Source: a virus
Virus record (IMG/VR): IMGVR_UViG_3300013132_002199
Coordinates: 1-25,078 of that record
Length of the DNA: 25,078 nt
Direction: 5' to 3' (one strand)
The notes beneath the pieces are model-generated. The model was not told the DNA's origin. It ran no database searches and worked only from the letters and a program-made list of their open reading frames with translations. The position numbers were made by a program, and so were the translations under genes. Shown one piece after another: positions 8,534 to 15,887 of this stretch. The number at the start of each line of letters is the position of its first letter. Position 1 is the first letter of the stretch.

Positions 8534-9502
8534 TTATTTAGAGGTTAGTTCAAGAATACTTTCTTTTAATAATAATTTTTGGAATTTACGCTTTGCGTCT
8601 TTCATAATGTTTCTGATAAACACATATTTTAAATCTACTGTAAGAACATCGCTAGTTGCAATGTTTTCTACTTTCTCTAGATATTTGTCAGAAATACTGT
8701 TTTCTTTAGCAAAGTTTACAGTATAGTTTACAAGACGTGTAGTCATAATACTTGCTATATCTGCACGGTAACCATTATTACTTTCAATTACATCTTTCAA
8801 TTTTTCAATTGTTGTTTCAGTTGTAATTTTATCACTCATCAATTCTTGAGGAGTTGGTAATAAGTCAAGTTTATTATGAATAAATGTAGTAAATAAAGTA
8901 GTTGCTTCAGGTCCAATACTACCTTCACCAATCATTTGAACCATTGGTAAATGATCTGCAAAGTTTTCAAACCCAGAGATACTATTAAAGAATGTAGTAA
9001 TAGAACGTGGATTAGTTTTTTGACCAATAAGTTCTGGGTGTTTGAGCACAAAGTTAATAGTTCGACCATCCATATCTACTTCTTCTGCCCATTTAGCCCA
9101 GCAATCTACATCAAATTTAAGTTTACAAGAAATAAATCTTGAAGTTTGTGCAGCATCTAGAGATGTAACTTGATAATCACCACCATCAGGATTTGAAGTT
9201 AGGATTACATGCCAATCTTCAGGTAATTTCCAAGAGTAATATTCTTGAGTATAAATCAAGTCCATTACAGCTTGCATCATTACTTGACTCCCACGCGTAA
9301 AATCATCTAACAAAAGTATCCCGCCATTCTTTTTATCTGCAATCCACTCAGGAGGACAGTATGTAGTACGCTTAACACCTGTTAGTTTTACAGCAGGGTC
9401 TTTAATAGCACGCTCTGCTTCCATTTCTGTAACCCATTTGGTCTTTGCTTGACCATTTACTTCTTTCACTACTTGAAATTCTTTCACTGGAAAGCCAACT
9501 AT
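8534..9502 (-). CDS. MoxR-type AAA+ ATPase, exon 2 (Walker B to C-terminus)
   Basis: This is the second exon of an intron-split gene; the complete CDS joins 10798-10580 to 9502-8534 and encodes 395 residues. Exon 2 begins with IVGFPVKEF, directly continuing ELSD of exon 1 to give the MoxR-like phrase ELSD-IVGFP. It holds Walker B ILLLDDF (about residues 135-141 of the joined protein), sensor 1 VILTSNPDGGDY (centred on Asn177), and the helical lid. MoxR ATPases act as chaperones with vWA proteins, and such a gene lies immediately upstream. A naive ORF caller would start at the ATG at 9505, but the G of that ATG is the last base of the intron. Confidence 0.88.
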   Translation of the reverse strand: MVGFPVKEFQVVKEVNGQAKTKWVTEMEAERAIKDPAVKLTGVKRTTYCPPEWIADKKNGGILLLDDFTRGSQVMMQAVMDLIYTQEYYSWKLPEDWHVILTSNPDGGDYQVTSLDAAQTSRFISCKLKFDVDCWAKWAEEVDMDGRTINFVLKHPELIGQKTNPRSITTFFNSISGFENFADHLPMVQMIGEGSIGPEATTLFTTFIHNKLDLLPTPQELMSDKITTETTIEKLKDVIESNNGYRADIASIMTTRLVNYTVNFAKENSISDKYLEKVENIATSDVLTVDLKYVFIRNIMKDAKRKFQKLLLKESILELTSK

Positions 9503-10579
9503 CATTAATGTTATCCTATAGGCTCTTTATCCTATAGTTCTGCAGTTTATTTTGTTATTTCTGCAGTTCAGACTATATCATCAATTACCTTTAAGTATTG
9601 GTATACATAAGTAATTGTTGTGCGCTCGTGGATATTTTGTCTTCAGCACCACCTGTTAAGATTACTTTATCTAGTCGTTGCTCCTTCAATGTATTTCTAC
9701 AAAGCTTGGATCAGGATTGTCCACTGCTGGATGTTCCCTGAGTTCACACAATTTTAGTCGGACCTAGTTGCTTTCCCTGTTTGTTTTTATTCTTATTGTA
9801 AATTCAAAATTTCCTTTGTTTACTTGATCTGTAAAAAACTGCCAACAGTCTCTTATATTTCTAAAAGCAAACAAATATTCTTCATTATCATTTTTTATTT
9901 CAAAAAAGAAACGTTTACCCAATGCATTAGGTATAACATTAAATTTTTGAACTGGTACAGATGAATTTGAATATCTTAATCTGTATCCATTTTCAGAAGC
10001 TACTCCTTTCTTATAACCTCCTGCAAGTCTATTTACTTGCTTTTTAGAGATTTTTAATTGTATAGCTGCTTCTTCTTTATCTTTAAATGATTTTAGATAA
10101 TTTCCTAGATAGTCATACATTTCAACTTCAGTATAATCATACTTAGTTTTGTATTTACCTTCCGCTCTCCCTTTTAGCACTGATTTAGAGAGTTTTTGCT
10201 TAGAGTAATTACTTAATGTTCTATCTACGGGATCTAATTGAAGATTAAAATCTGGTTTTAAATTTTGTATATAGTAAGATTCTTTTATAATCCTTTCTTC
10301 TGGATTACAAAATTCTACAATTTCATATAATATATGATCTTGTCCATATTTATTATATGCTTTTTGCAAAAAATCATTTGGGTGTTTTTTATAACCTAAA
10401 TGTTTTCTGTGTTCATGTAATCTTGCATACAAATCTTTACTGCTACCAATATAAAATCTATCATTACAAATGATTTTATATATACCAGACTTTTTTTGGA
10501 GTTCTTTTGAACTTAATTCTAAGAATAAATTTTTCATATAGTTATAATATACAACAAATATATGAAAAAATAAATTTTA
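9503..10579 (-). ncRNA. Group I intron (IA-like) in the MoxR ATPase gene
   Basis: The 1077-nt intron can be folded by eye. P1 pairs exon end GTCGGAT (10586-10580) with GTCCGAC (9763-9757), with the U.G pair at the splice site. P10 pairs exon 2 bases 2-7 (TAGTTG) with CAACTA (9770-9765). P3 is TTGTGTG (9751-9745) with CGCACAA (9624-9618). P4 is CAGG/CCTG, P5 is TCCA/TGGA, and P7 is GACTA (9676-9672) with TAGTC (9575-9571). A P7.1-like helix GTGG/CCAC lies between P7 and P3', a group IA feature. P8 is CAATTAC/GTAATTG (9617-9582), followed by two P9-type hairpins (CTGCAG arms 9540-9566; CTATAGG arms 9516-9537). The last base is G. Splicing restores the ORF; unspliced RNA hits TAA at once. Confidence 0.92.
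9764..10537 (-). CDS. GIY-YIG homing endonuclease inside intron 1
   Basis: This 257-residue intron-encoded endonuclease has an N-terminal GIY-YIG nuclease domain: SGIYKI (17-22), FYIGSS (28-33), Arg39 in LYARLHEHR, and the catalytic Glu at about 86 in RIIKESYYIQNLKPDFN. A degenerate NUMOD3-like stretch follows (LSNYSKQKLSKSVLKG, about 108-123). After it comes a NUMOD1/IENR-like DNA-binding repeat (VEMYDYLGNYLKSF..EAA..L.IS, then GYRLRY near 185). It would cut intronless alleles of the MoxR gene and drive intron homing. The whole gene sits in the P1 loop, and its last codons plus TAG overlap the P10 guide. A TATATTTG box (10555-10562) lies 17 nt upstream of the start but lacks a clear -33 partner. 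Confidence 0.9.
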   Translation of the reverse strand: MKNLFLELSSKELQKKSGIYKIICNDRFYIGSSKDLYARLHEHRKHLGYKKHPNDFLQKAYNKYGQDHILYEIVEFCNPEERIIKESYYIQNLKPDFNLQLDPVDRTLSNYSKQKLSKSVLKGRAEGKYKTKYDYTEVEMYDYLGNYLKSFKDKEEAAIQLKISKKQVNRLAGGYKKGVASENGYRLRYSNSSVPVQKFNVIPNALGKRFFFEIKNDNEEYLFAFRNIRDCWQFFTDQVNKGNFEFTIRIKTNRESN

Positions 10580-10798
10580 ATCCGACAGCTCATCTAATTG
10601 AGCAAGATTGATTTTAACAAAGTCTAATCCTTCTTCTTTTGCAATCTGACTAATAACAGTTGTCTTGCCAAGACCATGTTCACCCTCAACGTTAATTGCT
10701 ACGGGTGTCATTCCTTTTTGTTGAATAAGACGGTTGTTGTTAATAATCTGCTTTACAAAATCTTTTAATTCGTTTGTGTTTAAACTTACTTGTGCCAT
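10580..10798 (-). CDS. MoxR-type AAA+ ATPase, exon 1 (Walker A)
   Basis: First exon, 73 codons. It contains the Walker A loop GEHGLGKT (39-46) and the strand FVKINLAQLDELSD (60-73), where MoxR-like proteins normally continue with a hydrophobic residue plus VGFP. The ORF then stops with TAA, whose bases belong to the intron. Joined to 9502-8534 the reading frame is kept with no extra residues. The gene follows the vWA/metallopeptidase-like gene by 31 nt, the standard pairing of MoxR with its vWA partner. As a stand-alone ORF it would have a P-loop but no Walker B and would be inactive. Confidence 0.88.
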
Positions 10799-14367: not shown

Positions 14368-14735
14368 TTAATTTTCGTAGTTAATTATTGCTTGTCTTAC
14401 TAGATCTAAATCATTTTCTATTTCAAAATTCTCAAACATACCAGATGGTGATTTACATGTATTGCTACCATCATTTCTGGTTTCAAATACATATTTCATA
14501 GTACCATCTTTATCTTTCTTTACTTTGGCAAATAATACAATAGAGAATAAACCTTCTAATGTAAGAGAGTTATCAATCATTTTACCAACTGTTTTTGCCT
14601 TAATTCTTTTTTCACCATAAGCATCCATACTTTCTTCTGCGTGAGTAAGCATATAGATGATAAGATCATCCCTCATAGTCTGAGGTGCTCTAGCAATATT
14701 TGCTAAATCTTTGGCAATTTTATTAAATTTTTCAT
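14368..14735 (-). CDS. Sak4-like RecA-fold ATPase, exon 2
   Basis: Second exon; the full CDS joins 15887-15572 to 14735-14368 and gives 227 residues. The junction creates a Tyr codon (T from exon 1, AT from exon 2), so the product reads ADEKG-Y-EKFNKIAKD, the expected phrase in this ATPase family. Exon 2 continues with helices and strands holding SIVLFAKVKKDKDG and FETRNDGSNTCKSP, consistent with the last strands and sensor region of the P-loop NTPase. An ORF caller starting at the ATG at 14745 would read intron sequence as MGYD and misplace the start. Confidence 0.87.
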
Positions 14736-14766
14736 CGTAACCCATATACTTTCATATATGGCTGGA

Positions 14767-15321
14767 CTATATCATATTTGATTTTTTTAAAGGAGTTGTC
14801 AAAGCTTTTTCTAAAGACCATCCTTTATGTAATCTATCAATAACATTTTGATATCTCACAACAGAAAATCTTTTTACTATTTCTTTTAAAGTTCCTTTAA
14901 ACCCATTAAATTCTTTAGAGTTATCTATTACAATTGCTTCTTCAAAAGTAAATCCTTGTCTGTAGATTCTTTGATATAGTGTTGTATACTTTATATCAAG
15001 TTCTTTTGCCCAATCTTTTAAAACCATACTTTTATTATTAAAAGTAAATACTTTATTAAAAGTACCTCTGTTTTTACATTGGTCAGCTTGTGTTGCCCAT
15101 CTACAGTTTTCAGGATAATATCCTTTTGAATTATCAATTCTGTCTAAACTATGTTTTTCTGAAGGTGCTTTACCCATATCTTCTAAAAAATTATCATATG
15201 ACTTTTTCCATCTATCACAGACTTCTATATCTACATACGTACCTTTTTTTGCTGAAGGAGCATTACATCTTGCTTTCATAGCTTTCCAAGCTCTATATTC
15301 TTTAATGGTTCTTTTATTCAT
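14767..15321 (-). CDS. HNH homing endonuclease inside intron 2
   Basis: A 184-residue phage-type HNH endonuclease. The nuclease part runs from YRAWKAMKARC (9-19) through CDRW (35-38) and DMGKAP (48-53) to HSLDRIDNSKGYYPENCRWAT (57-77) with a final Asn84; His57, Asp60, Asn64 and Asn72 form the metal-binding core of this family. The C-terminal half has two similar helix-turn-helix-like units, LKDWAKELDIKYTTLYQRI (101-119) and LKEIVKRFSVVRYQNVIDRL (145-164), each followed by F/W-x-x-E-x-A; they probably bind the homing site. It would spread the intron into intronless alleles. Its TAG stop lies in the 3' strand of P7. A good promoter (15345-15375) lies just upstream. Confidence 0.9.
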   Translation of the reverse strand: MNKRTIKEYRAWKAMKARCNAPSAKKGTYVDIEVCDRWKKSYDNFLEDMGKAPSEKHSLDRIDNSKGYYPENCRWATQADQCKNRGTFNKVFTFNNKSMVLKDWAKELDIKYTTLYQRIYRQGFTFEEAIVIDNSKEFNGFKGTLKEIVKRFSVVRYQNVIDRLHKGWSLEKALTTPLKKSNMI

Positions 15322-15344
15322 GCTATTAATTGAATTACTATATA

Positions 15345-15375
15345 CAAATATAGCACAAATAAATTAAAAATCAAA
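15345..15375 (-). promoter_or_regulatory. Bacteroidetes-type promoter driving the intron-2 HNH gene
   Basis: On the minus strand TTTG (15375-15372), a 19-nt spacer and TATATTTG (15352-15345) match the full -33/-7 consensus. The ATG at 15321 lies 23 nt after the -7 box. The promoter is inside the intron, between P3' and the endonuclease gene. Confidence 0.65.
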
Positions 15376-15571
15376 TCTACCTCTTTAGTCTCTGAACCTT
15401 CATCCTTTACAGGAAGCTTGGCTGCGGATTGTCCATTGTTCATACTATAGCTTTTTACTATACTGTTGTGGTTAGCAACACCCTTTATCATATTACTATA
15501 TAAAGTTAGTACCATAGTCTTTAGGATATCCCCGCAATTTAAGTAGTTTTACAAGGGCATGAAAAAATTCC

Positions 15572-15887
15572 ACCCTTTCTCATCTGCTCTATCAAAATAT
15601 TCAAAAGCACTAGTATACTGAAGATCATCTATTACAATATTCTTGATTTCAGGTCTTCTATCATTTACATACTTCAAACAAGCCATTATTTCATTTGCAC
15701 CTGGACGAGTATACATTCTACCTTCTTGGTTTTCTTTAGACCAAATAGGATACATAGACTTCCAACCTTTAAATGGTAGTGGTTTGTTTGCAACATTAAT
15801 AATAAATGTTTCTTCGGGTTTTAGATTTTTAATTGATGTGCTTTTACCTGCACCTGATTCTGAGATAATTAATACACTTGATGCCAT
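15572..15887 (-). CDS. Sak4-like RecA-fold ATPase, exon 1
   Basis: First exon of a phage nucleotide-binding protein of the AAA_24/Sak4-like class, a RecA-fold recombination ATPase. Walker A is SESGAGKST (9-17) near the N-terminus. Walker B is NIVIDDLQY (83-91), followed by EYFDRADEKG (96-105), after which the family normally continues with Tyr or Phe and a K-F pair. Exon 1 ends one base into codon 106. Without splicing, translation adds a few spurious residues and stops. Together with the SSB-like gene downstream it forms a likely single-strand annealing or strand-exchange module. One base separates this gene from the upstream 181-aa gene's stop. Confidence 0.87.

Follow-up and report, generated by a model that had tools for sequence, protein, structure and literature searches.

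The window analysed here, a 25,078-nucleotide stretch of viral DNA, carries on its minus strand an ORF (10798-10577) with a P-loop (GEHGLGKTT) and another (9505-8534) with a Walker B-like motif (GGILLLDDF). The earlier note had taken these for one split gene, with the P-loop only in one half and Walker B only in the other, and we confirmed both motif-bearing ORFs on the two sides of the intervening element. Joining 10798-10580 to 9502-8534 gives a single open frame of 395 residues that passes from DELSD directly into IVGFP, the joint (ELSD-IVGFP, frame kept) that the note had predicted. This spliced protein aligns without gaps, over 395 of 395 residues and at 79-80% identity, with continuous ORFs of four relatives (L001, L002, L005 and L011). 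Among the MoxR relatives that we fetched, 88 are continuous, with a clean empty site, and these uninterrupted genes support the predicted splice junction. Both exons match phrog_1297 (ATPase), exon 2 with E 4.2e-29 and exon 1 with E 7.9e-6. Consistent with a MoxR-type AAA+ ATPase, the predicted spliced protein unites P-loop and Walker B, and its gene adjoins a DUF2201 VWA-like gene (12035-10830), that is, a VWA/metallopeptidase partner. The locus had also been described as a replication region, a fair label since the neighbouring genes are of replication type (DNA polymerase, primase, DnaB and Sak4). With DnaB at 30-34% identity, the phage is related only weakly to the crAss-like phages. Coordinates of all features are collected in Table 1.

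Table 1. Features of the two interrupted genes and their introns (window positions)
Feature	Positions	Strand	Remarks
MoxR-type ATPase exon 1	10580..10798	-	73 codons, P-loop
Group I intron, 1077 nt	9503..10579	-	First codon in exon-1 frame is the stop TAA; terminal G is G9503
MoxR-type ATPase exon 2	8534..9502	-	322 codons and stop, Walker B
P1 exon strand GUCGGAU	10580..10586	-	U.G at splice site
GIY-YIG homing endonuclease ORF, 257 aa	9764..10537	-	PF01541 E 1.4e-7; phrog_314 E 1.4e-12; 1mk0 E 1.5e-5
P10 intron strand CAACUA	9765..9770	-	Includes first two bases of endonuclease stop UAG (9766-9764)
P1 internal guide sequence GUCCGAC	9757..9763	-	Directly before P3
P3 5' strand	9745..9751	-	
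P4 (9741-9736 with 9716-9711) and P5 (9731-9728 with 9723-9720)	9711..9741	-	
P6 (9709-9708 with 9684-9683) and P6a (9704-9698 with 9693-9687)	9683..9709	-	
P7 5' strand GACUA	9672..9676	-	
P7.1 (9671-9668 with 9634-9631) and P7.2 (9661-9658 with 9643-9640)	9631..9671	-	
P3 3' strand	9618..9624	-	
P8 (9617-9610 with 9589-9582)	9582..9617	-	
P7 3' strand UAGUC	9571..9575	-	
P9 (9566-9561 with 9545-9540) and P9.1 (9537-9531 with 9522-9516)	9516..9566	-	
P10 exon-2 strand UAGUUG	9496..9501	-	Exon positions +2 to +7
Sak4-like exon 1	15572..15887	-	
Second group I intron, 836 nt, Sak4-like gene	14736..15571	-	RF00028 partial matches; empty site in L174
HNH endonuclease ORF, 184 aa, in second intron	14767..15321	-	phrog_3377 HNH endonuclease E 4.2e-47
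Sak4-like exon 2	14368..14735	-	

With regard to the nature of the interruption, a run of the group I model on 9503-10579 had been proposed as a check. When this region was scanned alone, RF00028 (group I intron) matched 9811-9561 of the minus strand at 58.8 bits (E 4.7e-14), just 9 bits above the Rfam cut-off of 50. The match had E 2.2e-16 in the genome search, and RF00028 did not detect the MoxR intron in Rfam scans of the whole window. Every helix listed in the earlier note (P1 with its U.G, P10, P3, P4, P5, P7, P7.1, P8 and P9) could be located, and to these we added P6, P6a, P7.2 and P9.1. The interruption thus has the features of an RF00028 member, namely a P3-P8 core with the P3/P7 pseudoknot, a P1 with U.G, a P10, a terminal G and a known empty site. 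P6a contains two U-U mismatches, both in the window and in L004, a relative with an intron at the same MoxR site (L018, L022 and L026 belong to the same contig as L004). Of the P1/P10 combinations in the intron's 3' part, that of a 7-bp P1 with a 6-bp P10 is the best, and its total of 13 pairs was reached in 24 of 5000 dinucleotide shuffles. The intron is of subgroup IA type by its P7.1 and P7.2, which lie between P7 and P3 and both covary, and from this structure it would be expected to splice itself.

To follow the fold through evolution we aligned 20 distinct intron cores from sites 219 and 435 of the MoxR-type gene over 60 pairs. Of 1056 cells, 99.6% are paired, and both sides have changed in 29 of the 60 pairs, as against a mean of 12.5 and a maximum of 20 in 500 shuffles. 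As the 20 cores are related sequences, the shuffles overstate significance; controls in which the structure was slid along the alignment preserve that relatedness, and gave 29-40% of cells paired and at most two pairs changed on both sides. P7 never varies among the 20 cores and is accordingly backed by conservation only. Compensatory change extends to pairs with one exonic and one intronic partner: the outermost P1 pair is exon G with guide C in the window and exon A with guide U in L004, and P10 is UAGUUG/CAACUA in the window versus UAGUAG/CUACUA in L004, so that one U-A pair has become A-U. Covariation among these sequences thus supports the predicted core fold.

The locus could also be read as a broken gene, into which an endonuclease gene or a decayed intron has been inserted and whose halves are pseudogene fragments or separate proteins. 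Each half is an ORF for which a start is possible, splicing is itself a prediction, and the family includes a candidate for decay: the insertion L024:2904-4021, at the same MoxR site as in the window, has a frameshifted endonuclease, and a search for P1 within it found no good one, so that it may be a decaying intron. In the window, however, the two exons remain in frame and resemble intact relatives, their join gives a gapless protein, and the core is conserved with compensatory changes, some of them in pairs with exon bases, all of which makes a broken gene highly improbable. Together, the Rfam score, the uninterrupted relatives and the covariation bear out the earlier proposal of a complete group I intron, rather than a pseudogene, in the MoxR ATPase gene; its base-precise splice sites are backed by the gapless alignment and the covariation.

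Homologous introns of other phages occupy the window's site and three further ones in the coding sequence of this same gene, the four being nt 128, 219, 435 and 464, and RF00028 matched in 34 of the 43 records searched. At each site P1 is matched to its own exon and lies next to the core, and any ORF present lies in the P1 loop. Three records (L101-L103) carry two introns in the MoxR-type gene. At site 435 the exon ends in GCGGAT, which includes CGGAT, in 20 of 20 distinct intron-bearing alleles versus 4 of 69 intronless ones; at site 219 the end TCGGAT, again including CGGAT, is found in 3 of 3 versus 1 of 68. As the base that differs stands in a third codon position, this bias is probably due to P1 pairing or co-conversion. 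Sites 219 and 435 have the exon end CGGAT and the guide start GUCCG in common, and the intron may therefore have moved from one to the other. In an unrooted core tree, site-219 introns cluster with three site-435 introns (support 98/99), and a single origin per site still appears in 44% of bootstraps, for which reason we dropped the tree as proof of hopping. Our tentative scenario, to which we give rather less than an even chance, is that one lineage of introns with a GIY-YIG ORF in the P1 loop settled at all four sites by retuning P1 and P10 to each exon, with a possible move between 219 and 435 by ectopic homing or reverse splicing. In L014, a weak group I match (1429-1563, 26.8 bits) begins shortly before the DUF2201 gene and extends into it. 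The DUF2201 ORF is shorter here than in L016, and the match is possibly another intron.

Most of the MoxR intron is taken up by an ORF that sits entirely within the P1 loop, between the splice site and the guide sequence, its stop codon overlapping the intron strand of P10. Neither this ORF nor its location had been reported in the earlier note, which also lacked the evidence for homing and the second intron described below. The predicted protein matches PF01541 above that family's cut-off, and its closest solved structure is the I-TevI catalytic domain. It is intact, with conserved G18 I19 Y20 and Y29 I30 G31, the two halves of the GIY...YIG motif, and the catalytic positions R39, E86 and N98. 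A hairpin over the start codon is strong in both window introns and in L004. Start-codon pairing in ten distinct introns did not differ from that in 109 control genes (mean 0.56 versus 0.51, Mann-Whitney p 0.44), and we rejected such a hairpin, a control known from T4, as a trait of the family.

Evidence that the intron has moved comes from contig 3300005613_001385 (L023/L174), which is ~75% identical to the window across most of the DNA that the two share. In the first 487 nt of the MoxR intron their identity is 96-100% (about 97%), and in the final ~60 nt of exon 1 it is 95-100%, versus 65-85% in the preceding exon; the contig ends inside the intron, and this profile therefore covers its 5' side. 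Recent homing in which the flanking exon is co-converted would be expected to leave such a profile. The profile suggests that the intron recently passed between phages and, as judged from these alignments, supports its horizontal spread. Identity could also rise without any endonuclease, through ordinary recombination between phages or because the intron itself is strongly conserved, and here a single pair of relatives reaches this level, its 3' side missing. Against this, identity climbs within ~60 nt of the insertion site and is high at third positions and in the endonuclease ORF alike; moreover, L004 carries the same intron with an endonuclease just 81% identical, and so the intron is not intrinsically invariant. 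We consider an explanation without homing quite unlikely. It is also conceivable that the intron splices while its endonuclease is inactive and inheritance has become vertical. Activity of the GIY-YIG protein is predicted from its sequence, and the family includes an ORF-less derivative, a 431-nt intron at site 435 of L171 (L171:1340-1770) that retains remnants of a deleted GIY-YIG ORF. The window ORF, by contrast, is intact, with its motifs and conserved R, E and N positions, and the far greater likeness of the intron than of its surroundings in the L023/L174 contig points to recent transfer, which leaves an inactive enzyme unlikely. The L171 contig is filed as a Sphingomonadaceae MAG and is probably phage DNA binned with its host.

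The element at 10579-9503 is thus almost certainly a mobile group I intron of subgroup IA type, with a GIY-YIG endonuclease, in a MoxR-type gene. As its anatomy implies, the transcript would fold into P3-P9, and the guide GUCCGAC would pair with the last seven exon bases as P1, placing U.G at the cut. An external G would cut after U10580, and the freed exon would attack after G9503 while P10 holds exon 2, giving a message for the 395-aa MoxR-type ATPase. The endonuclease would cut intronless alleles, whose repair would copy the intron in. Ribosomes would be stopped at the splice site by the TAA with which the intron begins; in other phage introns a ribosome stop there is thought to aid folding.

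A second group I intron interrupts the Sak4-like gene. RF00028 matches it in two parts (38.3 and 18.5 bits), each below the Rfam cut-off, and the HNH ORF lies between the two P7 strands, by eye in the P8 loop. Joining 15572 to 14735 yields a 227-aa Sak4-like protein; it has matches in 80 full-length relatives, and in 72 of these the alignment is gapless. In agreement with this predicted junction, the alignment to L174, which lacks the intron, is interrupted at 15574 and continues from 14735. Inspection by eye gives a P1 of AAGGGU with GCCCUU and a P10 of AUGAAAAAU with AUUUUUUCAU. Placing the 3' splice site after TTACG gives the GYEKF of the relatives and a long P10; placements before GTTACG or GGTTACG were rejected, as they add a residue or break the frame. 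In L025 (2709-5190) a Sak4-like gene contains two consecutive group I introns, one carrying a GIY-YIG ORF and the other an HNH ORF. Before the HNH ORF of the window, 15375-15345 of the minus strand is a perfect match to a Bacteroidota-type promoter (TTTG-N19-TATATTTG), and as many such matches arose in 9 of 100 shuffles. A transcript from this predicted promoter would begin within a hairpin that otherwise covers the HNH start codon.

Two replication-region phage genes that appear broken can therefore be read instead as intact genes with predicted splicing. The MoxR intron family is well resolved and rich in natural variants: the same intron type occupies four sites of one gene, the sites also occur empty, one derivative lacks the ORF, and a distant phage carries a near-identical copy. 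The family offers a good natural series for the movement of group I introns between sites and the adaptation of P1 and P10. Where an endonuclease gene separates the parts of an intron, the standard Rfam scan of a whole contig misses it.

The MoxR intron shares with T4 td/I-TevI its place in a phage protein gene, P7.1 and P7.2, and a GIY-YIG homing endonuclease. The td host gene, in contrast, is thymidylate synthase rather than a MoxR ATPase, and its endonuclease ORF is not in the P1 loop, which the window ORF fills, but in a loop of the core domain. The 3' end of the td ORF enters the core (PMC2988022). Both GIY-YIG and HNH endonucleases are familiar from group I introns of phages (PMC2988022, PMC3984707, PMC11878797), as are stop codons near the 5' splice site (PMC3984707), and such introns abound in some crAss-like and Jug phages (PMC7886860, PMC12363816). 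In the crAss-like survey, introns lie in core replication genes of delta-group genomes, including the AAA ATPase ATP_43b, primase and PolB; they were identified mainly through endonuclease domains, with no splice sites given in the passages considered here (PMC7886860). The likeness is one of introns in replication genes, with ATP_43b comparable by its AAA ATPase class. Genes of the Bastillevirinae harbour numerous introns of subgroup IA type; an endonuclease-coding loop often divides these introns, and group I models then match them only in part. Their host genes, however, are chiefly those for DNA polymerase, ribonucleotide reductase and terminase, and their endonucleases mostly HNH (PMC11878797). 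Group I introns are likewise numerous in the 'Jug' phages, where metatranscriptome reads back the splicing of 37 out of 76, but there they lie in terL, nrdD and DNA polymerase, and the endonucleases are mostly free-standing (PMC12363816). A partial literature search found no pairing of MoxR with a phage group I intron and, for phages, neither a homing endonuclease in the P1 loop nor four intron sites in one gene. Two features are less usual: the endonuclease lies in the P1 loop throughout the family, and the family occupies four sites of a single gene.
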